Shown here one piece after another: positions 8,681 to 22,466 of a DNA stretch of 22,484 nt. How positions within the stretch are numbered: position 1 is the stretch's first letter; each line of letters starts with the position of its first letter. This DNA comes from a virus, in IMG/VR virus record IMGVR_UViG_3300046001_002412, positions 1 through 22,484 of that record; one strand, given 5' to 3'. Below the pieces are notes generated by a model. It searched no databases. It was not told the DNA's origin and saw only the letters and a program-made list of their open reading frames with translations. Both the position numbers and the translations under genes were made by a program.

Positions 8681-8860
8681 ATGGACAAAGAAATAGCATA
8701 CGCAAAATGGCTAAAAAGGTTTAAACGTACTAGATTAATGCCACTAACTAGAGAACACAACGGGGGCATTTTAAGAAACAAATATGAGCGTAAAGATAAG
8801 ATAGCATTTAACAAGTGTTTAAGTGGCTTAGAATGGTTTAAAAACAACGAATATGAATAA
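8681..8860 (+). CDS. 59-residue basic small protein
   Basis: The frame from ATG 8681 to TAA 8858-8860 fills the gap between its neighbours and overlaps the next gene by eight bases. The product is strongly basic (AKWLKRFKRTRLM, then LRNKYERKDK) with a Trp-containing end (SGLEWFKNNEYE). A nucleic-acid contact is possible from charge alone. No family is recognised. Support comes from packing and from codon use like that of neighbours. Confidence 0.55.
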   Translation: MDKEIAYAKWLKRFKRTRLMPLTREHNGGILRNKYERKDKIAFNKCLSGLEWFKNNEYE

Positions 8861-9146
8861 GAAAATTAAAGCACAAGAGCGAAAGTTGAAGTTAATCAAC
8901 AATCAGATGCACTACAATAAGCTAATAGCTGAAACAATGACAATGCAACCGCTATTTTTAGAAAACTTTGAAGAACTTAACGAAGTATTGCCAGAGTTTT
9001 TTACTACGGACTTACTTAAGAAGTTAGAGATGTTTAGCAATAGTCTGTACTATAAGCAATCAGATGAGGACTTGTCTGGACTTGCAGACGAGCAAATACA
9101 AAATACTAAGGAACTTCGTAATTTTTTTAACGAATCATTTAAATAA
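8853..9146 (+). CDS. Helical protein whose 3' end is duplicated by the HNH insertion
   Basis: This 97-residue, helix-rich protein is of unknown function: a basic helix (1-25), a central region (LFLENFEELNEVLPEFF) and an acidic linker (SDEDLSGLADEQIQ). Its last 15 residues, QNTKELRNFFNESFK (83-97), reappear with few changes as the last residues of the HNH endonuclease encoded at 9263-9778, with 17 identical bases (9097-9113 and 9726-9742). I infer that the gene originally continued into the downstream copy and overlapped the gene at 9775, and that the insertion supplied a replacement C-terminus. The gene is therefore probably intact in function. It overlaps its upstream neighbour by eight bases. 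Confidence 0.65.
   Translation: MNKKIKAQERKLKLINNQMHYNKLIAETMTMQPLFLENFEELNEVLPEFFTTDLLKKLEMFSNSLYYKQSDEDLSGLADEQIQNTKELRNFFNESFK
9097..9113 (+). repeat. 17-bp direct repeat, left copy
   Basis: TACAAAATACTAAGGAA is identical to 9726-9742. It lies in the same codon phase of two different genes and marks the left edge of the inferred insertion. Confidence 0.85.
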
Positions 9147-9152
9147 TTTTTG

Positions 9153-9160
9153 TATATTTG
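9153..9160 (+). promoter_or_regulatory. -7 box for RNA element 1 and the HNH gene
   Basis: TATATTTG lies seven bases after the preceding stop codon and ten bases before the first stem of the pseudoknot. No clear -33 TTTG is seen at the expected distance, so the promoter could be weak or activator-dependent. Confidence 0.5.
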
Positions 9161-9164
9161 CACT

Positions 9165-9249
9165 ATGAAGCGTAGGAACTTCTAAAAATATTTATCAAAA
9201 ACTCTATTAATTAAGGTTATCCTACGCACCTTTTTTAATGGAGTTTTTT
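9165..9249 (+). ncRNA. Pseudoknot leader/small RNA, copy 1
   Basis: Two interleaved stems are visible. Stem 1 is GCGTAGGA (9170-9177) with TCCTACGC (9220-9227), 8 perfect pairs. Stem 2 is AAAAACTCTATTAA (9197-9210) with TTAATGGAGTTTTT (9235-9248), 14 pairs including one G-U. The 5' half of stem 2 is inside the loop of stem 1, so together they form an H-type pseudoknot with loops of 19, 9 and 7 bases. A T6 run (9231-9236) follows stem 1 and another (9244-9249) ends stem 2, so either stem could act as a terminator. The HNH gene starts 13 bases later. The same architecture recurs at 10576-10660. Confidence 0.65.
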
Positions 9250-9262
9250 ATTTAATTATATT

Positions 9263-9778
9263 ATGATTGAAGAATGGGTAAAAGCAAAAGGGTTTGAAGA
9301 AAATTATCAAATTTCTAATTTTGGGTTAGTTAAAAGCAATTGGAATAATAATTCTAAAATTTTAAAACCTGCAATTAATGGAGTTGGATATTATCATGTA
9401 ATATTATGTAAAAATTTAAAACAATATACTGTTAGAGTACATCAGTTAGTAGCTACTTCTTTTTTAAATCACAATAAAGAAAGCGGTTTAATAGTTGACC
9501 ATATAGACAACAATCCTTTAAATAATAGATTAGATAATTTACAGATAATAACTAGAAGAGAAAATAATTCTAAAGATAGAAAAAATAAAAGTTCAAAATA
9601 TACTGGTGTAAGTTGGTGTAAAAAAAATAGTAAATGGAGAGCTGGCATTAAAACAAATGGTAAATCTACTAATTTAGGTAATTTTACAAATGAAGAAGAA
9701 GCAAGTAACGCATATCAAAATGCATTACAAAATACTAAGGAATTAAGGGAATTTTTTAATAAAAGTTTTGAGTTATGA
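9263..9778 (+). CDS. HNH homing endonuclease (NUMOD4-HNH-AP2)
   Basis: The 171-residue protein has three modules. Residues 3-50 are NUMOD4-like (EEWVKAKGFEENYQISNFG), a short DNA-binding module. Residues 58-101 are an HNH_3 nuclease core (RVHQLVATSF, then VDHIDNNPLNNRLDNLQ) with His80 and the Asn residues expected at the metal site. Residues 112-155 are AP2-like (KYTGVSWCKKNSKWRAGI, then FTNEEEASNAYQNAL). Such free-standing homing endonucleases cut intron-less or gene-less alleles and spread their own gene. Beyond the AP2 domain the protein carries QNTKELREFFNKSFEL, a copy of the end of the upstream 97-residue protein, so its C-terminus is made from target-gene sequence. Its stop overlaps the next ATG by four bases. 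Confidence 0.9.
   Translation: MIEEWVKAKGFEENYQISNFGLVKSNWNNNSKILKPAINGVGYYHVILCKNLKQYTVRVHQLVATSFLNHNKESGLIVDHIDNNPLNNRLDNLQIITRRENNSKDRKNKSSKYTGVSWCKKNSKWRAGIKTNGKSTNLGNFTNEEEASNAYQNALQNTKELREFFNKSFEL
9726..9742 (+). repeat. 17-bp direct repeat, right copy
   Basis: Identical to 9097-9113 and 629 bases away. It lies near the 3' end of the HNH gene; the sequence after it probably represents the native 3' end of the interrupted gene. Confidence 0.85.
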
Positions 9779-10086
9779 GTGGTGGAGCATTTGATTACAA
9801 TCAATATAAAATAAGACAGATTTTAGAGATTATTCAGCATGAACTAGATAAACAAGGTAAAGAGAAAGATTTTTCACCTTGGCAAAAAGAATACTTTGAG
9901 AAATACCCTGAGGCAAGGTATGAAGAAATTTATAGAGAAGATGTACAGCAAATATTTAAAGATGGTATTGAAGCATTAAAGAAAGCTGAAGTCTATGCTC
10001 AAAGGATTGACTGGTTTCTTTCAGGAGATGATGGAGAAGATAGTTTAGTTTCAAGACTGAAATCTGATTTGGAGAAGTTAACATAG
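9775..10086 (+). CDS. MSGGAFDY-type conserved phage protein
   Basis: This 103-residue soluble protein opens with MSGGAFDYNQYKIRQILEII, an N-terminus I recall from a widespread family of uncharacterised short proteins in phages and bacteria. It continues as a helical, strongly charged chain (ELDKQGKEKDFSPWQKEYFE) and ends with RIDWFLSGDDGEDSLVSRL. Members usually keep the GGAFDY start, a central acidic helix and a W-x-x-SGD-(D/E) turn, all present here. Function is unknown. It is the last gene of the early operon before the 595-base non-coding region. Its ATG overlaps the TGA of the HNH gene, and before the inferred insertion would have overlapped the 97-residue gene. Confidence 0.75.
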   Translation: MSGGAFDYNQYKIRQILEIIQHELDKQGKEKDFSPWQKEYFEKYPEARYEEIYREDVQQIFKDGIEALKKAEVYAQRIDWFLSGDDGEDSLVSRLKSDLEKLT

Positions 10087-10118
10087 CTGCTTAATGCGTA
10101 TTGTTCGGTTAAGCAACT

Positions 10119-10171
10119 GAATAGGGGGAGTAAAATAAATGCAATTATTTTGTCTAAAGCTCTCCTTATTC
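10119..10171 (+). other. Two-tier hairpin in the non-coding region
   Basis: GAATAGGGGGAG (10119-10130) pairs with CTCTCCTTATTC (10160-10171), 12 pairs with two G-U. Inside it AAAATAA (10132-10138) pairs with TTATTTT (10145-10151). The G-U pairs suggest function as RNA rather than as a DNA cruciform. No T run follows, so it is not an ordinary terminator. Confidence 0.6.
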
Positions 10172-10180
10172 TTACTTTGG

Positions 10181-10194
10181 CACTATTTAGAATT
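10181..10194 (+). repeat. 14-bp direct repeat, copy 1
   Basis: CACTATTTAGAATT is repeated exactly at 10253-10266, 72 bases downstream. A related ATAGAAT segment lies between them near 10222. It could be an operator for a DNA-binding protein. Confidence 0.7.
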
Positions 10195-10237
10195 TACTTC
10201 CAAAACACAAATACACCATAAATAGAATCATTTGCCG

Positions 10238-10245
10238 TATATTTG
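10238..10245 (+). promoter_or_regulatory. -7 box of a short transcription unit
   Basis: TATATTTG is followed eight bases later by copy 2 of the 14-bp repeat, so that repeat would lie at or just after the RNA start. No -33 TTTG is seen at the usual spacing. The unit would end at the terminator 10302-10334 after about 80 bases. Confidence 0.4.
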
Positions 10246-10252
10246 TGCAAAA

Positions 10253-10266
10253 CACTATTTAGAATT
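10253..10266 (+). repeat. 14-bp direct repeat, copy 2
   Basis: An exact copy of 10181-10194, placed over the expected transcription start of the -7 box at 10238-10245. Confidence 0.7.
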
Positions 10267-10301
10267 AATATAAATAAGAGTAAAAAGATTATAATTAAAT
10301 G

Positions 10302-10334
10302 ATCCTGCTATTAATTTAGCGGGATTTTTTGTTT
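10302..10334 (+). terminator. Rho-independent terminator
   Basis: ATCCTGCTA (10302-10310) pairs with TAGCGGGAT (10317-10325), nine pairs with one G-U, across the loop TTAATT. A TTTTTTGTTTT tail follows. It separates the early operon and the short unit at 10238 from the origin-like motifs and the primase promoter. Confidence 0.85.
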
Positions 10335-10338
10335 TATG

Positions 10339-10487
10339 CCACATATTCCACATATCTCTTATATACCACCTGTTGAGTAAAAATAAAAACAAGGGGGTAT
10401 CCCTAAAAAAAACGTTTTGTGGTGGCGTATGTGGTAGTAAGTTGATTTTTAATTACTTATATATTGTTTATGTGGCAGTTTATGTGG
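10339..10487. other. Iteron-like motif cluster, candidate replication origin
   Basis: The heptamer CCACATA occurs at 10339-10345 and 10348-10354, and its reverse complement TATGTGG at 10428-10434, 10469-10475 and 10481-10487. CCACC (10366-10370) and GTGGTGG (10419-10425) form an inner inverted pair. The arrangement is two motifs in one orientation and three in the other around an AT-rich centre, directly before the primase-helicase gene and after a terminator. That fits initiator-binding iterons of an origin. An alternative is an operator array for the downstream promoter. Confidence 0.45.
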
Positions 10488-10562
10488 TGTTTATTTAATT
10501 ACTTGGTTTTCAATTAGTTAAATTTATTTTTATATTTATGTTATTTATATTGATATTAATAG

Positions 10563-10570
10563 TATATTTG
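10563..10570 (+). promoter_or_regulatory. -7 box for RNA element 2 and the replication operon
   Basis: TATATTTG lies 11 bases before the first stem of pseudoknot copy 2, nearly the same distance as for copy 1 (10 bases). The -33 region is AT-rich without a clear TTTG. Confidence 0.55.
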
Positions 10571-10575
10571 TAATA

Positions 10576-10660
10576 GGTAAGCGTGGAAACTTCCAAAGAT
10601 TTTATTTAAAAAACCCATTTGTTAAAAGTCATTCCACGCGCTTTTTTCAAATGGGTTTTA
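10576..10660 (+). ncRNA. Pseudoknot leader/small RNA, copy 2
   Basis: Stem 1 is GCGTGGAA (10581-10588) with TTCCACGC (10632-10639), 8 perfect pairs. Stem 2 is AAAACCCATTTG (10610-10621) with CAAATGGGTTTT (10648-10659), 12 perfect pairs. Loops are 21, 10 and 8 bases, and a T6 run (10642-10647) follows stem 1, as in copy 1. The first loop keeps ACTTC-AAA-AT from copy 1. Stem positions that differ between the copies are mostly compensated (A-T for G-C twice in stem 1; T-A for C-G in stem 2). The primase-helicase gene begins 22 bases after the element, so this is its leader or a separate small RNA. Confidence 0.65.
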
Positions 10661-10681
10661 ACGTTTAAAAACAGTTGAACT

Positions 10682-13042
10682 ATGAATGAACCTTTTAATG
10701 CAAAAATTTCAATATTTAAAAATTTATTTAACTCCAAAGAAACTCCATTTAGTTTAACAGTAACAGACGTTTATGAAAGGATTAAAATTGGTAATCCTAT
10801 ATTAATTGATAAGATTAATACTATTAGAACAACTCCAGATAAAGAGTTAAGAAATAGCACTAAAAATAGTTTGCTAGCTATTTTATTTAATGGTGTTTTT
10901 ATTGAAAGAACTGATAACTCATTAGAGGAACATTCAGGATGTTGTATTTTAGATTTTGATAAGTACCCTTCTTTAGAAATAATGAATGAAGAACGTAAAA
11001 GATTAATAAGCAATAAGCACGTTTTAATGGTGTTTACTTCTCCAAGTGGTAATGGTTTAAAGGCTTTAATTCGTATTCCAAAAAGTAATAAGTTAGAACA
11101 TAAAAGAAGGTTTAACGCATTTAGAAAGTATTTTAAAAGTGATTATTTTGATGAAAAAAATTGCAACGTATCAAGAGTTTGTTTTGAAAGTTATGATCCT
11201 GAAATTTATCTAAATCAATTTTGCGAGGAGTTTACAGAAATAGAAGAAGAAAAAGGATTTACTTATGCTGAAAAAGTACCTTCAATTATTTTAAGAGATG
11301 AAAGAAAAATAATTGAAAGAATAATGAAATTTGATTTTAAAGGTGGTTTTGAAGAAGGCAATCGAAATAACTACATTTTAAAGTTAGCTATGTCATTTTC
11401 TGAATATGGAATAAGTCAAGACACAGCAGAAGGATATATTTTTAACAATGTTGTTATTGGTGATTTTTCAGAAACAGAAACTGTAAATACAATTCGTTCA
11501 GCTTACAGGAAAACAACTTTTGATAGTAAATATTTTGAAGATTTTTTAACTATTAAAACCATTGAAAATAAAATAAAAAGTGGTATTAATTTAGATGATA
11601 TTCAAAAACAACTTAATGTAGATAAAGAAGTAATTAACGAAATAAAATTTCAATTAGTTGAGTCGGAGGATATATTTTGGAATATTCAAGTTAATAAAAA
11701 CGGAGGAGAAACAATAACAATAGAGCCATTTAAGTATGCTTCATTTTTAGTAAAGAATGGATTTAACAAATACTATCCTGAAACTTCAGAAAATCCTACT
11801 TTTGTAAGAGTGAAAGAAAATAAAGTTAACCTTTCTTCAGTTGCTCAAATAAAAGATTTTGTTTTAAATTATTTACTAGAAAGAGGTTTAATAAACGTGT
11901 GGAACTATTGTTCAAAAAGCCCTTATTTATTTACTGAAAGTCATTTAAATATGATTGATAGTATTTTCTTAAAAATGTTAGCAGATGAAAAGAACACTGC
12001 TTATATTCCTTTTAAAAATGGAGTTGTTAAAGTTACAGCAGATAATACGGAGCTTCTTAATTTTATTGATGTTGATGGTTATATTTGGGAAAATCAAATA
12101 ATAAATAGAGAATTTAAAAAAGTAACAGATTTTACAAATGACTTTCAAGATTTTATAAAAAAAGTAAGCGCAAATGATAAGGAAAGGACAAAGTCATTAG
12201 AGCTAACATTAGGTTATTTAATTCATACTTACAAAGATAAAACAGACCAGAAAGCTGTTATATTTAATGATCAAGAAATTGATGATAACCCTAACGGAGG
12301 TAGTGGAAAAAGTTTAGTTTTAACTTCATTATCAAATTTTAGAAAGTTAATAAAAATAGATGGTAAAGCTTTTGATCCTAAAAAATCAGATTTTGTTTAT
12401 CAACGTGTAAATCTAGATACTCAAATATTATCATTTGACGATGTTAAAAAGAATTTTAATTTTGAACAATTATTTTCTTTAATTACTGAAGGAATAACAG
12501 TTAATAGAAAAAATAAAGATGAGATATTTATTCCGTTTGAACGTTCTCCAAAAATTATTATAACAACAAACTATGTGATAAATGGAATTGGAAGCTCACA
12601 CGAAAGAAGGCGACACGAAATAGAGTTTTTTCAGTATTTTAATAATAAAAGAAGTCCACTTTCTGAATATGGTAGATTACTTTTTGATAGTTGGAATGTA
12701 AACGATTGGAATAAATTTGATAATTATTTTATCAATAATTTACAAATGTTTTTAAGTGAAGGATTAGCAAAAACGGTTTCAATAAATGGTAATGCAAAAA
12801 GATTTATTCAAGGTTCAACAAAAGATTTTTTCGACTGGACAGAAGAGGGTAACTTGCAAGTAAATAAAAGAATTTATACAGTTGAAGTTGTGGCTTTATT
12901 TCTTCAGGAATATAAAAACTATAAAGAATTAAGCCCACGTGATTTTATGAAATGGGTAAGAGAATATTGCGATTATAAAGGTTATGATTTTGAAAAAAAT
13001 AGAGATCAACAAGGAAGATATTTTGAAATAAAAACTAATTAA
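10682..13042 (+). CDS. Primase-helicase (BT4734-like primase plus SF3-type helicase)
   Basis: This 786-residue protein is the likely replication initiator. Residues 60-180 resemble the BT4734-like/VirE-N primase group of the archaeo-eukaryotic primase superfamily: a D-x-D motif at 91-93 (CCILDFDKYP), TSPSGNGLKALI at 119-130 and NVSRVCFESYDPEIYL at 162-177. A helical region (190-330) follows. The C-terminal half is a helicase/NTPase of the phage DUF5906/SF3 kind: Walker A GGSGKS at 539-544 with Lys543, Walker B ILSFDD at 582-587, and a sensor-like KIIITTNY near 625. A basic arginine-finger-like SSHERRRH follows. Primase and helicase in one chain would open the origin and lay primers. It lies just after the candidate origin and pseudoknot leader and nine bases before a second helicase gene. 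Confidence 0.85.
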   Translation: MNEPFNAKISIFKNLFNSKETPFSLTVTDVYERIKIGNPILIDKINTIRTTPDKELRNSTKNSLLAILFNGVFIERTDNSLEEHSGCCILDFDKYPSLEIMNEERKRLISNKHVLMVFTSPSGNGLKALIRIPKSNKLEHKRRFNAFRKYFKSDYFDEKNCNVSRVCFESYDPEIYLNQFCEEFTEIEEEKGFTYAEKVPSIILRDERKIIERIMKFDFKGGFEEGNRNNYILKLAMSFSEYGISQDTAEGYIFNNVVIGDFSETETVNTIRSAYRKTTFDSKYFEDFLTIKTIENKIKSGINLDDIQKQLNVDKEVINEIKFQLVESEDIFWNIQVNKNGGETITIEPFKYASFLVKNGFNKYYPETSENPTFVRVKENKVNLSSVAQIKDFVLNYLLERGLINVWNYCSKSPYLFTESHLNMIDSIFLKMLADEKNTAYIPFKNGVVKVTADNTELLNFIDVDGYIWENQIINREFKKVTDFTNDFQDFIKKVSANDKERTKSLELTLGYLIHTYKDKTDQKAVIFNDQEIDDNPNGGSGKSLVLTSLSNFRKLIKIDGKAFDPKKSDFVYQRVNLDTQILSFDDVKKNFNFEQLFSLITEGITVNRKNKDEIFIPFERSPKIIITTNYVINGIGSSHERRRHEIEFFQYFNNKRSPLSEYGRLLFDSWNVNDWNKFDNYFINNLQMFLSEGLAKTVSINGNAKRFIQGSTKDFFDWTEEGNLQVNKRIYTVEVVALFLQEYKNYKELSPRDFMKWVREYCDYKGYDFEKNRDQQGRYFEIKTN

Positions 13043-13050
13043 AATAAAAA

Positions 13051-14646
13051 ATGTTAAACCAAGAACAACAAGAATTGCAAAATCAATTAATATATTTTAT
13101 AAACGGTAGTGAAAATGGTTTTTTTGGTGTAGTTGGAGCTGGAGGTACAGGAAAAACTTTTGCAATAGCTCAATCAATAGATGTTTCACAAGCTATTTTT
13201 TTAGGCGCAACCAATAAAGTAGTAGGAAATTTAAAGGCATCCTTAAAAAAAGCTGGGGAAGAAAATTTTAAAGCAAAGACAATAGATAGTTTTTTAGGTT
13301 TTAGAATGATTAAAGACCACAATAACAGAACAATAACTAAAAGAAAGTTACCAAAGCTAGAGGACATTCCAAAAATTATTGTAATTGATGAAATATCTTT
13401 AATTAACAATGAATGTTTTGATTTGTTAATGAAATTAAAAAACAAAAGAAAGTTTATTTTAATTGGTGATAATAGACAGATACCACCTATAGAGGATGAG
13501 TTTGAAAGAGATAGTCAAGGATTTAAAGTTAGTAAAATTTTTAATAAATTTGATTATTGTATAGAGTTAACTATTCAGCAAAGACAAAAAGAAGGTACAG
13601 ATTTAAAAGATTTAATTAAAAAATTTAGAGAAAATATGCATCTAGAAATTAACTTTGAAAAAATGGCTAATAAATTTAGAAACAATAATGATATACTTTT
13701 TTACAATAATAATTCAAAGGAACTAAAACAAATAATCAAAGGTCAAAACCCAATAGCAGTATGTTTTAAAAATTTAACTTGCCTTTCTTTTAATTGGTTA
13801 ATTGGATCAACAAAATCAAATAATTTAGGATATAAAGTAAATGAATTAAATGAAGGGGATTTAGTATTCTTTGATAGTTTCTATTTAAGAGATGATGAAA
13901 GATTTTATACTTCAGAAACAGTTAAAATTATGAAAATTGAAAATTTCGTAGAAGAAGAAAAAGAAATATACATTGGTGAGGTTGCTAAATTTAATTATAA
14001 GAAAATATTAGTTAAAAAAGAAAGTGGTGTTCAAGTTATTATTTACGTTGGAAATGGCTATAAAGAAACACTATACCCTATTAAATACAGAATTGACAAA
14101 GTGGTTGGTAAAATAAAAAAAGAGATTGAAAAACTAAACGCTGGTAATAAATATAAATTTGTATTACAGAAAAAAATAGCAGAATTAAATACAAAGTATA
14201 ATGATTTAAAATTAGGATTTGCAACACTTAAAAAACCTTTTGCTATTACTTCACACAAAAGTCAAGGAAGTACGTTTAACGATGTTATAATTCCAATTTA
14301 TGACTATGCAAATAAATATCCTCAAGATGTTAATCAATTAATGTATGTAGCAATGTCAAGAGCTGAAGGAAGAATAATATTTGTAAATAAAAATTCTAAT
14401 TTTAAAGACAATTCAAATAGATATTCTTTTTCAGAAATGGAACGTTCAGCTATTGCTTCAAGTCAATCTTATAATTGCAACATTTGTGAAATACAATTAA
14501 ATGATAATAGAGAATTTGATGTGGACCACATTATTCCTATTGCAAATGGAGGTAAGAATACAGTTGATAATTTACAAGCTATTTGCAAGGTTTGTCATTC
14601 TGAAAAAACAAAAGTAGAAAAATATGGGATAATTGAAACTGTATAA
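13051..14646 (+). CDS. RecD/Dda-like SF1 helicase fused to an HNH nuclease domain
   Basis: The 531-residue protein has an SF1B helicase body: Walker A GAGGTGKT at 29-36 (Lys35), Walker B VIDEIS at 111-116, motif III GDNRQIPP at 139-146, the UvrD_C_2-like ITSHKSQGSTFNDV at 399-412 and motif VI YVAMSRAEGR at 432-441. These resemble T4 Dda and RecD2, which move 5'-3' on DNA. Residues 470-525 are a separate HNH domain: CNIC (476-479), VDHIIPIANGGKN (491-503), NLQAICKVC (507-515) and His516. They carry the zinc-binding Cys pairs and a catalytic His493. Fusion of this helicase type to an HNH nuclease is unusual and suggests coupled unwinding and cutting in replication or recombination. It follows the primase-helicase gene by nine bases. 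Confidence 0.85.
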   Translation: MLNQEQQELQNQLIYFINGSENGFFGVVGAGGTGKTFAIAQSIDVSQAIFLGATNKVVGNLKASLKKAGEENFKAKTIDSFLGFRMIKDHNNRTITKRKLPKLEDIPKIIVIDEISLINNECFDLLMKLKNKRKFILIGDNRQIPPIEDEFERDSQGFKVSKIFNKFDYCIELTIQQRQKEGTDLKDLIKKFRENMHLEINFEKMANKFRNNNDILFYNNNSKELKQIIKGQNPIAVCFKNLTCLSFNWLIGSTKSNNLGYKVNELNEGDLVFFDSFYLRDDERFYTSETVKIMKIENFVEEEKEIYIGEVAKFNYKKILVKKESGVQVIIYVGNGYKETLYPIKYRIDKVVGKIKKEIEKLNAGNKYKFVLQKKIAELNTKYNDLKLGFATLKKPFAITSHKSQGSTFNDVIIPIYDYANKYPQDVNQLMYVAMSRAEGRIIFVNKNSNFKDNSNRYSFSEMERSAIASSQSYNCNICEIQLNDNREFDVDHIIPIANGGKNTVDNLQAICKVCHSEKTKVEKYGIIETV

Positions 14647-14664
14647 AAAAAATAGGTATATTTA
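14633..14664 (+). promoter_or_regulatory. Weak promoter candidate before the ssDNA-binding gene
   Basis: TTG (14633-14635) and TATATTTA (14657-14664) are 21 bases apart. The last base of the -7 box differs from TAnnTTTG. It would boost expression of the abundant protein encoded at 14687. Confidence 0.35.
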
Positions 14665-14686
14665 CGGAAAATAAAATTTAAAAATT

Positions 14687-14962
14687 ATGAAGGTTACAGG
14701 AACATTAAAAGTAAAGAAAGATACTCAGGTAGTATCAGAGCAATTCTCAAAACGTGAATTTGTATTAACAGTTGTTGATGGTGCATTCTCAAATGACATC
14801 TTAATTCAGTTAACAAAAGACAAGTGTAATTTATTAAACGCTTTCAACATTGGTGACTTGTTAGAAGTTGATATTAATTTGTCAGGAAAATGTTGGTTAA
14901 ACCCTCAAGGTGAAGAAAAATACTTTAACTCACTTAACGGTTGGAAAATAACAAAGATGTAA
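14687..14962 (+). CDS. DUF3127-like OB-fold protein, probable ssDNA-binding protein
   Basis: The 91-residue product has the pattern of DUF3127, a Bacteroidota family thought to adopt an OB fold like single-strand DNA-binding proteins. It starts with MKVTGTLKVKK, has the strand SKREFVLTV at 21-29, a GDLLEVDINLSGKCW block at 56-70 and ends with the N-GWKI strand at 84-88. All these sit in family order at the expected spacing. Its position after primase and helicase genes and its own weak promoter fit the role of coating single strands at the fork and loading recombination proteins such as ERF. DNA binding is inferred from family and context. Confidence 0.75.
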   Translation: MKVTGTLKVKKDTQVVSEQFSKREFVLTVVDGAFSNDILIQLTKDKCNLLNAFNIGDLLEVDINLSGKCWLNPQGEEKYFNSLNGWKITKM

Positions 14963-14965
14963 AAT

Positions 14966-15169
14966 ATGGCAGACATAACGATGTGCAGCGGCACTAACTG
15001 CCCTAAAAAAGAAGAGTGCTACAGATTTACATCATACGCAAATGAACACCGACAAAGCTGGTTTAATGAGCCGCCATTTAAGATAGTGGAAGATAAGTTC
15101 ACGTGCGATATGTTTTGGGGTGACAGGAACGAGAGAGTTATAAACCAATTAAAAAATATAATGAAATGA
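14966..15169 (+). CDS. Small four-cysteine protein, probable zinc binder
   Basis: The 67-residue protein has a Cys pattern C7-x4-C12-x5-C18-x28-C47 (MCSGTNCPKKEECYRFTSYA, then FTCDMFW), which could bind one zinc ion. Similar short proteins with CP-x3-x-CYR-(F/Y)T are common in Bacteroidota phage replication regions as far as I recall, but have no known role. It follows the OB-fold gene by three bases and overlaps the next by four (15166-15169). Confidence 0.7.
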   Translation: MADITMCSGTNCPKKEECYRFTSYANEHRQSWFNEPPFKIVEDKFTCDMFWGDRNERVINQLKNIMK

Positions 15170-20725: not shown

Positions 20726-21252
20726 AAGCAACTAAAAAAGCGTGGAAAAGCGCAACTAATAACCTACGTACAAGGCAACAGAAAGCACAACATACGGACG
20801 ATAACAGAACAGCCCCAAACATTTTAAGAGACTATGAAACACATTTAAACAAGTGCGGTTACGGTAATAGTATTTTAGACGTTGGATGCGGTGGTCAATT
20901 CCTTAAAACTTGTATTCCTGAAGATGTTGAGTATATCGGTTTAGATGCTTTTCCAATTGAAGGAGTGCCAACATTGAAAGGTTCGATTGAAACTATTGAG
21001 GGCATAGAAGTTGATACGGTTTGCTGCATGGCGGTTTTAGATAACTGTTTAGATTTTGATAAGGCAATAGACAACATTAAAAAGATAGCGCAAAAGAATG
21101 TTATTATCTTAACAGGTATCGATATTGAAATAGACCAATACCATACTTTTAAATTACAGTTGTCCGACTTTGAAAGAATGTTTAAAGATATGAAGCTAAC
21201 TTATATGGAACTATTACAACCTAAAGTATATCTAATATGCTACAGCCACTAG
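20722..21252 (+). CDS. Class I SAM-dependent methyltransferase
   Basis: The 176-residue protein has a clear SAM-binding motif I, ILDVGCGG, at 51-58, followed by motif II YIGLDAFP (71-78, Asp75) and the motif IV region CCMAVLDNCLDFDKA (101-115). There is no DPPY/NPPY or Cys motif of DNA methylases, so the substrate is more likely a sugar, lipid, small molecule or protein. Basic residues at the N-terminus (KATKKAWKSATNNLRTRQQK) precede the core. It sits between two glycosyltransferase genes with overlaps of four and 16 bases, so it probably methylates a sugar added by its neighbours or the same acceptor. That link is inferred from position. Confidence 0.85.
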   Translation: MKATKKAWKSATNNLRTRQQKAQHTDDNRTAPNILRDYETHLNKCGYGNSILDVGCGGQFLKTCIPEDVEYIGLDAFPIEGVPTLKGSIETIEGIEVDTVCCMAVLDNCLDFDKAIDNIKKIAQKNVIILTGIDIEIDQYHTFKLQLSDFERMFKDMKLTYMELLQPKVYLICYSH

Positions 21253-22466
21253 TAAGTATTATAATCCCTTACTCAATTGATAGGGGTTATCTTAGTCAAG
21301 CAATTGAAAGCGTTAAAAAACAAACGTATTCCAATATTGAGTTATTAATACAGAATGATAATGTTAACGTTTCAACAAATATAAACAACGGTATTAAACG
21401 CGCGAAAGGTTTATATATTAAATATCTATGTGAAGACGATTATCTAACCCCTAACTCAATTACAGATAGTGTTGAAGCTATGCAAGGTTTTGACTTTATT
21501 CATGGGGTTGCTAACAATGTACACACAAATAGCGTGCAAGTTCAACACCCTAGATTTAAACATCCTACTTTTAATGACATGATATACAACAATGTTATTC
21601 ACGGTGGTACACTAATGTTTAAAAAGGACATTTTAGACGCTGTAAACGGCTTTGATGAGTCATTAACTTGTGCTGAAGAGTATGATTTAAATCTTAGATT
21701 GTTAGATGCTGGTTATAAATTAGGTTATACAGATAAGATTCTATACAATTACCGTAGACATGACGCTCAAAAGAGCTTAGGTAAAGGAATAAACCAAGGT
21801 GAACGAGCGCAAAAGATACAAGCAATTAGAGATAAATTTACTAGAACACCTATAATTGTAGGAATAGCAACTTTTAAAGGGCGTGAATTGTTATTGCAAA
21901 GGACTATAGACTCTTTAATAGGTCAAGTTGATAAGATAATAGTTTACAATAATGAACTAAATACCGACTTAACCGATAATGGAAAGTTTTACGGGTTAAA
22001 TTATGTGACTAAACCGTCTTACTATTTCAGTTGTGACGATGATATAATTTACCCTAGCGACTATGTACAGAAAACAATACAAGCAATAGACAAACATAAT
22101 TGTATAGTAACTTACCACGGTCGTAGATTGAAAGGCATAGGAGTGGAATACTATAGAGGTCATGATTCTTATAGCGCATTTAAGACCGTTAATAATGGAA
22201 TGTATTTAGATGTATGTGGAACGGGAGTAACTGCATTTAAAACAGATTATTTTAACCCGACAAGCTTACTAGATTCTGAACACAAAAAAATGAGTGATGT
22301 TATATTCTCACTTAAAGCAATGAAGGATAAAAAGAAAATGTTTATGTTACCACATTCCCAAGGTTGGATTATAGAACAAAGAACAATAGTAAATATACAT
22401 ACTGAACAAATTAAAAACTCACAAATACAAACAACACTATGCGACGAAATAATGAATTTGAAATAA
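21237..22466 (+). CDS. Double-domain GT-A glycosyltransferase
   Basis: The 409-residue protein seems to hold two GT-A domains. Residues 1-200 are a family 2 enzyme: PLVSIIIPYSIDRGYLSQAI at 4-23, the metal/donor motif LCEDDYLTP at 64-72, GFDESLTCAEEYDLNLRL at 138-155 and RRHDAQKS at 173-180. Residues 203-409 form a second domain: PIIVGIATFKGRELLLQRTI at 205-224, a second acidic site FSCDDDIIYPSDYV at 264-277 and a conserved-looking GTGVTAFKTDYF region further on. Each domain could transfer one sugar, as in bifunctional polymerising enzymes. The gene overlaps the methyltransferase gene by 16 bases. The acceptor is unknown: capsid, tail, DNA or host surface are all open. Confidence 0.8.
   Translation: MLQPLVSIIIPYSIDRGYLSQAIESVKKQTYSNIELLIQNDNVNVSTNINNGIKRAKGLYIKYLCEDDYLTPNSITDSVEAMQGFDFIHGVANNVHTNSVQVQHPRFKHPTFNDMIYNNVIHGGTLMFKKDILDAVNGFDESLTCAEEYDLNLRLLDAGYKLGYTDKILYNYRRHDAQKSLGKGINQGERAQKIQAIRDKFTRTPIIVGIATFKGRELLLQRTIDSLIGQVDKIIVYNNELNTDLTDNGKFYGLNYVTKPSYYFSCDDDIIYPSDYVQKTIQAIDKHNCIVTYHGRRLKGIGVEYYRGHDSYSAFKTVNNGMYLDVCGTGVTAFKTDYFNPTSLLDSEHKKMSDVIFSLKAMKDKKKMFMLPHSQGWIIEQRTIVNIHTEQIKNSQIQTTLCDEIMNLK

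Follow-up and report, generated by a model that had tools for sequence, protein, structure and literature searches.

In the dfn leader of Bacillus velezensis, LoaP binds a small UNCG hairpin, and an intrinsic terminator follows (PMC12691694). The UpxY leaders of Bacteroides, which the RNA described here resembles, also have a leader hairpin and then an intrinsic terminator in front of a long operon. In the immunity leader of phage P4, processing yields the CI RNA, which pairs with two separate sites, seqA and seqC (PMC4825925). Other structured phage RNAs are found close to early promoters or replication genes. The put RNA of HK022 is phage-encoded and lies right behind an early promoter, and the 5′ UTR of the T4 gene 32 mRNA, which encodes a DNA-replication protein, contains an H-type pseudoknot. 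For Bacteroidota phages little gene regulation is known. We have analysed a 22,484-nt stretch of DNA (the window; IMG/VR record IMGVR_UViG_3300046001_002412) with two copies, both on the plus strand, of an RNA located at the entrance to the replication operon. This RNA likely represents an undescribed and apparently common class of structured RNA in Bacteroidota phages.

The initial annotation, made from the sequence alone, had proposed two structured RNA copies, each between a −7 box and a gene. This was confirmed, and the sequence at 9153–9263 and 10563–10682 is as described there (Table 1). The claimed 8-bp first stem, P1, was recovered as a perfect helix in both copies by an inverted-repeat search. 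The interleaved second stem also held but was incomplete, as in both copies the same search showed that it extends inward past a 2×2 mismatch as a further helix, P3, with long inverted-repeat arms at 9194–9217/9228–9251 (copy 1) and 10610–10628/10641–10659 (copy 2). The 3′ strand of P1 is therefore the loop of a single long P2+P3 hairpin, with two bases between it and the 5′ strand of P3 and none before the 3′ strand of P3. Owing to P3, what had been read as the second and third loops is mostly paired. The H-type topology was right but incomplete, with P3 and a small 5′ hairpin, P0, overlooked. The distance to the start codon, given as 13–22 bases past each copy, is corrected to 14 and 22 bases, counted from the last P2 pair (start codons at 9263 and 10682). 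The extent of the class is far larger than the two copies that had been noted.

Table 1. Positions of the RNA elements and of the genes behind them in the window.
Feature	Copy	Position	Strand	Basis and remarks
−7 box TATATTTG	1	9153..9160	+	Sequence; the box is upstream of nearly all homologues, shortly before the element
P0, 5′ hairpin GAAG/CTTC	1	9167..9182	+	Predicted MFE fold; loop holds most of P1
P0 arms	1	GAAG 9167–9170 with CTTC 9179–9182	+	Flanks of the 5′ P1 strand can pair
P1 5′ strand GCGTAGGA	1	9170..9177	+	Inverted-repeat search, covariation
P2 5′ strand	1	9197..9210	+	Inverted repeat, covariation, folding
P3 5′ strand AAGGT	1	9213..9217	+	Inverted repeat, covariation, folding
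P1 3′ strand TCCTACGC	1	9220..9227	+	Inverted-repeat search, covariation; apical loop of the P2/P3 hairpin
P3 3′ strand ACCTT	1	9228..9232	+	Inverted repeat, covariation
P2 3′ strand and U-tract (GTTTTTT)	1	9235..9249 (P2 pairing 9235–9248)	+	Inverted repeat, T counts
NUMOD4/HNH endonuclease gene	1	9263..9778	+	Pfam; AP2-like domain, free-standing homing endonuclease type
−7 box TATATTTG	2	10563..10570	+	Sequence
Weak P0 (AAG/CTT)	2	10579..10592	+	Folding
P1 5′ strand GCGTGGAA	2	10581..10588	+	Inverted-repeat search, covariation
P2 5′ strand	2	10610..10621	+	Inverted repeat, folding
P3 5′ strand AAAAGT	2	10624..10629	+	Folding
P1 3′ strand TTCCACGC	2	10632..10639	+	Inverted-repeat search, covariation
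P3 3′ strand GCTTTT	2	10640..10645	+	Folding
P2 3′ strand, weak U-tract (TTTTAAC)	2	10648..10659	+	Sequence, folding
Primase gene	2	10682..13042	+	Pfam; BT4734-like N-terminal domain, PriCT_1; first of replication operon

Folding of the 86-nt RNAs gave z-scores of −4.4 for copy 1 and −4.2 for copy 2, with none of 200 shuffles equally stable, and the hairpins by themselves reached −7.6 and −7.2. In copy 2 a local alternative, UGGA/UCCA (10584–10587 with 10592–10595), is predicted in place of P0. Between promoter and start codon copy 1 has a stem followed by a U-tract (GTTTTTTATTT), and the tract of copy 2 is weak. A terminator scanner flagged neither copy, and its loop limit of 8 excludes both. 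At 10238–10332 there is a further TATATTTG, followed about 55 nt on by a terminator-like hairpin (GATCCTGCTA TTAATT TAGCGGGATT and a T run), the loop of which matches, as its complement, an AATTAA that lies upstream between ATTTA and TAAAT. This may be a small RNA or a third element made up of A and T only, and it could also be due to chance.

Homologues of the window copies, which we call type A, were found by scanning IMG/VR with four patterns, one of which was anchored on the 3′ half only. Their order of elements is −7 box, GAAGCGTNNRA(A)ACTYC, an A/T-rich linker, P2, P3, P1′, P3′, P2′ and ATG. A covariance model (R1) trained on eight members from other phages, and on the P2/P3 pairs only, recovers 66 loci, among them both window copies (E-values 2.8e-13 and 4.5e-11). 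Among 43 distinct sequences, 97.7% of the cells are paired, as compared to 84.5% after shuffling and 41–49% after sliding, and double changes are found in 16 of the 25 pairs. P1 is Watson–Crick in all 43 (43/43), and its three variable pairs change on both sides only, never on one (AGGA, GAGA, GGAA, CGGA). The constancy of GCGT/ACGC in P1 is partly a product of the search patterns, and later matches free of this bias (L264, L345) have GGGT and GCCT, each with a partner strand that fits. The initial annotation had set the absence of compensated changes in further homologues as grounds for its own refutation; such changes were sought, and the test was strongly passed.

The GAAG/CTTC P0 of type A is nearly invariant, with 84.3% pairing and no double changes. 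An ACTCCG subfamily breaks one of its pairs and could extend the hairpin as TCGAAG/CTCCGA with one A–C mismatch. As the main 5′ structure of type A, the GAAG/CTTC hairpin thus has no support from covariation. A short uORF across P1 of copy 1 (MKRRNF and a stop) was rejected, as its ATG is absent from many members, and so were two pattern matches in Bacteroidota genomes (L261, L262) that the covariance model does not match.

Elements of unrelated sequence with the same layout, type B, were obtained from loci fetched by protein homology to the Toprim primase-helicase and to DUF6291. These were scanned with a structural descriptor made up of the −7 box, P2, P3 and an 8-nt P1 that finds its complement; neither P0 nor any fixed sequence was required. 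It returned many elements at the equivalent place with unrelated P1 strands, such as GGTCTCAC, GAGTCTCA, CTTCTCAC and CATCCGAC. In most of them P1 lies within the loop of a 5′ hairpin P0, for example GTTAC..GTAAC, AGTTC..GAACT, GTGTTA..TAACAC, ATATGC..GCATAT or GCGTT..AACGC. When P0 was required, the descriptor gave 81 matches in real sequence versus 15 in reversed sequence, and 77 versus 6 in the higher-score bins. In matches found without requiring P0, its score was 12.3 versus 9.0 in shuffles, and a score of 11 was reached by 77% of the real versus 25% of the shuffled sequences. From a plain MAFFT alignment of 23 type B sequences RNAalifold predicted, unprompted, exactly P0 and P2, with compensatory changes in 14 of the 15 pairs. 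P1 of type B is 95.6% paired, which in those 23 sequences is partly by construction. However, a model without the P1 pairs (R2) gave six further matches, and all six (6/6) have complementary P1/P1′ strands at the expected offset, with lengths of 8, 8, 8, 7, 6 and 6 bp. One opposite-strand match (L188) was treated as a false positive. Because the type B layout adds a covarying 5′ hairpin, it is a loop–loop pseudoknot. In both types the interleaved helices are backed by covariation, as is needed of an H-type pseudoknot or loop–loop RNA.

The elements lie a short way behind a Bacteroidota −7 box and end close to a start codon. In about 95 distinct elements the distance from the end of P2 to the first ATG is 4–48 nt (type A) or about 0–49 nt (type B). 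The first ATG is thus too close for a second leadered promoter, which favours action in cis. In the 8 nt past the stem, 22 of 40 type B elements have 7–8 T, and 30 of 47 type A elements have at least 6 T past theirs. Several type B stems carry a U7 tract without an A-tract opposite (L276, L370). Many type A tails are just T4–T5 and paired with an opposite A-tract, and one element is nearly without a tail (L025). For the class as a whole, a stem and U-tract between promoter and start codon provide the anatomy of an attenuator with an intrinsic terminator. A conserved motif like GTTACTGGTNATCTTAAAACCTTTATT lies between RNA and ATG in a subset of both types (L237, L227, L205, L192, L276, L427).

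Behind the element there is mostly a replication operon or a homing endonuclease. The first downstream genes encode primase/helicases, primosomal proteins, DnaD-like loaders, DnaB-like helicases, replication-initiation proteins and DUF6291 proteins, and others encode free-standing HNH/GIY-YIG endonucleases. In the window, a 51-nt direct repeat (73%) is present at 9097–9147 and 9726–9776. The ORF at 8853–9146 (..NTKELRNFFNESFK) and the HNH gene (..NTKELREFFNKSFEL) share it at their 3′ ends. In view of this repeat, leader and HNH gene look like an inserted cassette that copies the 3′ end of its target. A single ORF at 13051–14646 combines a SF1/PIF1-like helicase with a C-terminal HNH domain (residues 476–521). 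The replication module at 10501–15000 has a G+C content of 0.25–0.26, as compared to about 0.31–0.37 in most of the remainder, and this drop suggests that it was acquired separately. The right end of the window has a glycosyltransferase-like gene (21237–22466; phrog_8858).

The sequences of the two types are interchangeable between related phages. In the clearest pair, a type A and a type B locus (L225 and L274), only the RNA varies: the 300 nt upstream are 87–97% identical, the last 40 nt before the RNA 93%, the RNA 45% and the next 900 nt 95–100%, and the breaks in identity fall at the start of the RNA and at the U-tract. Two further pairs (L237/L335 and L264/L357) have the upstream flank in common, with a different RNA and different sequence beyond, and in another (L189/L198, GGAA/GAGA) the upstream region and the first downstream codons are shared. 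Assembly chimaeras are an unlikely cause of several independent swap pairs, although they are not formally excluded. Because identical elements had been collapsed, a tally of flank-matched pairs by whether they agree in P1 is biased and was not used as a ratio. P1 differs in each contig with at least two elements; two type A pairs are informative on this point, AGGA/GGAA in the window and AGGA/GAGA in L240. A swap of same-shaped RNAs of unrelated sequence between near-identical genomes is unusual and calls for an explanation by specificity or conflict.

The statement that the RNA belongs to no named class held. At the curated gathering cut-off, Rfam 15 gave 0 matches for the window and for 15 type B loci, and a permissive scan of the window region gave chance matches only. 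The exclusion of preQ1 and SAM-II also held, as the region matches neither of these families even at an E-value of 10. Nothing matching a phage RNA of this kind was found in the open-access literature searched. When the two copies and two typical members were compared to the INPHARED phages by blastn, only short chance matches were obtained. Type A is known here from uncultivated phages only, and its pattern found no member in 397 Flavobacteriaceae or 395 Bacteroidota genomes. A promoter and P1 pattern gave 18 matches in 85k GTDB genomes; 0 passed the structural screen, and those inspected had no partner strand. With the type B model no member was found in 61 Flavobacterium genomes, which is a weak negative in view of the strict filters. 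Type B does occur in isolates, namely Flavobacterium phage 11b (AJ842011, near 33644; modest descriptor score and P0 read by eye), Tenacibaculum phage JQ (MT002873, near 35969) and Cellulophaga phage phi10:1 (KC821618, 10259), each time in the gap before replication genes. The occurrence of the class in cultured phages makes it directly testable.

We favour, with only modest preference and in the absence of expression data, a function as a cis-acting 5′ leader RNA of about 80–100 nt, most likely a transcription attenuator. The promoter–RNA–ATG layout, the pairing of P1, P2 and P3, the P0 of type B, the U-tract, the genomic place and the interchange of versions between the same flanks are established by the comparisons above. 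Promoter, structured RNA with a terminator-like end and ATG, without room for a second promoter, make up the anatomy of an attenuated leader. Function is inferred. Transcription would start at the host-type (−33/−7) promoter, with the RNA 5′ end at or just before P0/P1. The 5′ strand of P1, in or beside the small P0, would pair with the apical loop of the long P2/P3 hairpin. With the U-tract that most members have just before the first start codon, P2/P3 would act as a conditional terminator upstream of the homing endonuclease or replication operon, and the P1 lock and the closure of P2/P3 would jointly set polymerase read-through. If P1 forms before P3 and P2, it may delay closure of the hairpin and promote read-through, or stabilise the hairpin and promote termination. 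The inferred parts are the transcription start, co-transcription, termination, the signal and the direction in which P1 acts, and sensing and trans-action are untested. Apart from P1, no competing antiterminator helix was seen, and the anatomy therefore does not by itself reveal how the switch would work. The poor U-tract of copy 2 and the weak, paired tails of many type A elements argue against an attenuator, and a pure role in mRNA stability or translation remains possible, being equally compatible with the layout.

Such a role, which we regard as rather less likely, would amount to capture of the 5′ end, in which the pseudoknot protects the mRNA against decay or controls how ribosomes reach the ATG, without termination. 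A possible variant, by analogy to T4 gene 32 mRNA, is autoregulation by a single-strand-binding protein of the phage. The position of P1 at the predicted 5′ end, the end of P2 where the 30S footprint would begin, an SSB-like protein (phrog_4932) encoded downstream in the window and the weak U-tracts in part of type A would be in agreement with this. However, it leaves the type B U-tract beyond the paired stem without a role, and a generic shield would not be expected to show precise RNA swapping between near-identical phages. The initial annotation had proposed a phage regulatory RNA, either a cis attenuator or translation switch or a small RNA. This is supported, and a cis leader is favoured over an sRNA gene of its own because of the fixed short gap to the start codon and the lack of room for a second promoter. 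An independent sRNA with other host or phage targets, the next ORF being merely nearby, could explain a promoter and a terminator-like end about 90 nt apart. It is nevertheless very improbable, as about 95 distinct elements show a constant, short gap to the ATG that contains no further promoter, and the swapped RNAs, without common sequence, would have no common target site. An element acting at the DNA level, a replication origin or recombination hot spot, is no more credible. The usual single strong copy per 30–40 kb record before replication genes, and the exchange of cassettes, would fit. Orientation and spacing to promoter and ATG are invariant, however, the element also precedes homing endonuclease genes, and several records have at least two copies. 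The window contains no GC-skew switch, although an origin is not excluded.

Action in trans is unlikely. A prematurely terminated RNA of about 95 nt would use P1/P1′ to pair with the leader being transcribed from another copy, and would control termination there, as immunity or dosage control by analogy to the P4 CI RNA, with P1 alleles as specificity groups. Unrelated RNA cassettes between flanks that are 93–100% identical (L225/L274), the many different P1 8-mers, the different P1 of two type A copies in one phage and the position before the replication operon, as in P4, speak for it. Against it, P1 is strictly self-complementary within each RNA and pairing in cis suffices as explanation; these phages have not been shown to be temperate; and no resident copies were found in 397 Flavobacteriaceae and 395 Bacteroidota genomes (type A patterns) or 61 Flavobacterium genomes (type B, strict filters). 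The trans model is kept alive because the swaps hint at specificity. A bolder and equally doubtful reading is that of exchangeable RNA lock cassettes, in which a leader responds to no RNA other than that of the same P1 allele. If true, RNA would serve to exclude superinfecting phages or to control the copy number through the replication operon, and diversifying selection would exchange the RNA of about 95 nt but leave promoter and genes unchanged.

A comparison with the described systems places the preferred cis-acting leader as follows. The preQ1 and SAM-II riboswitches are alike in topology but differ in sequence, size and gene context. The T4 gene 32 pseudoknot is much smaller and binds gp32, and its distance to the start codon downstream is larger. 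The put RNA differs in having two hairpins of conserved sequence that act on RNA polymerase, without a close terminator and ATG. With the P4 CI leader the phage RNA shares a short untranslated structured leader and, by inference, premature termination before phage replication genes. Unlike in P4, both pairing partners are loops of one compact RNA, and there is neither a common sequence nor an Rfam match. For the hairpin of the dfn leader no pairing with the terminator loop is known, and for the phage RNA no NusG-like partner has been identified. Yet dfn remains the closest described layout, as it also has an RNA hairpin and then an intrinsic terminator before a long operon (PMC12691694).
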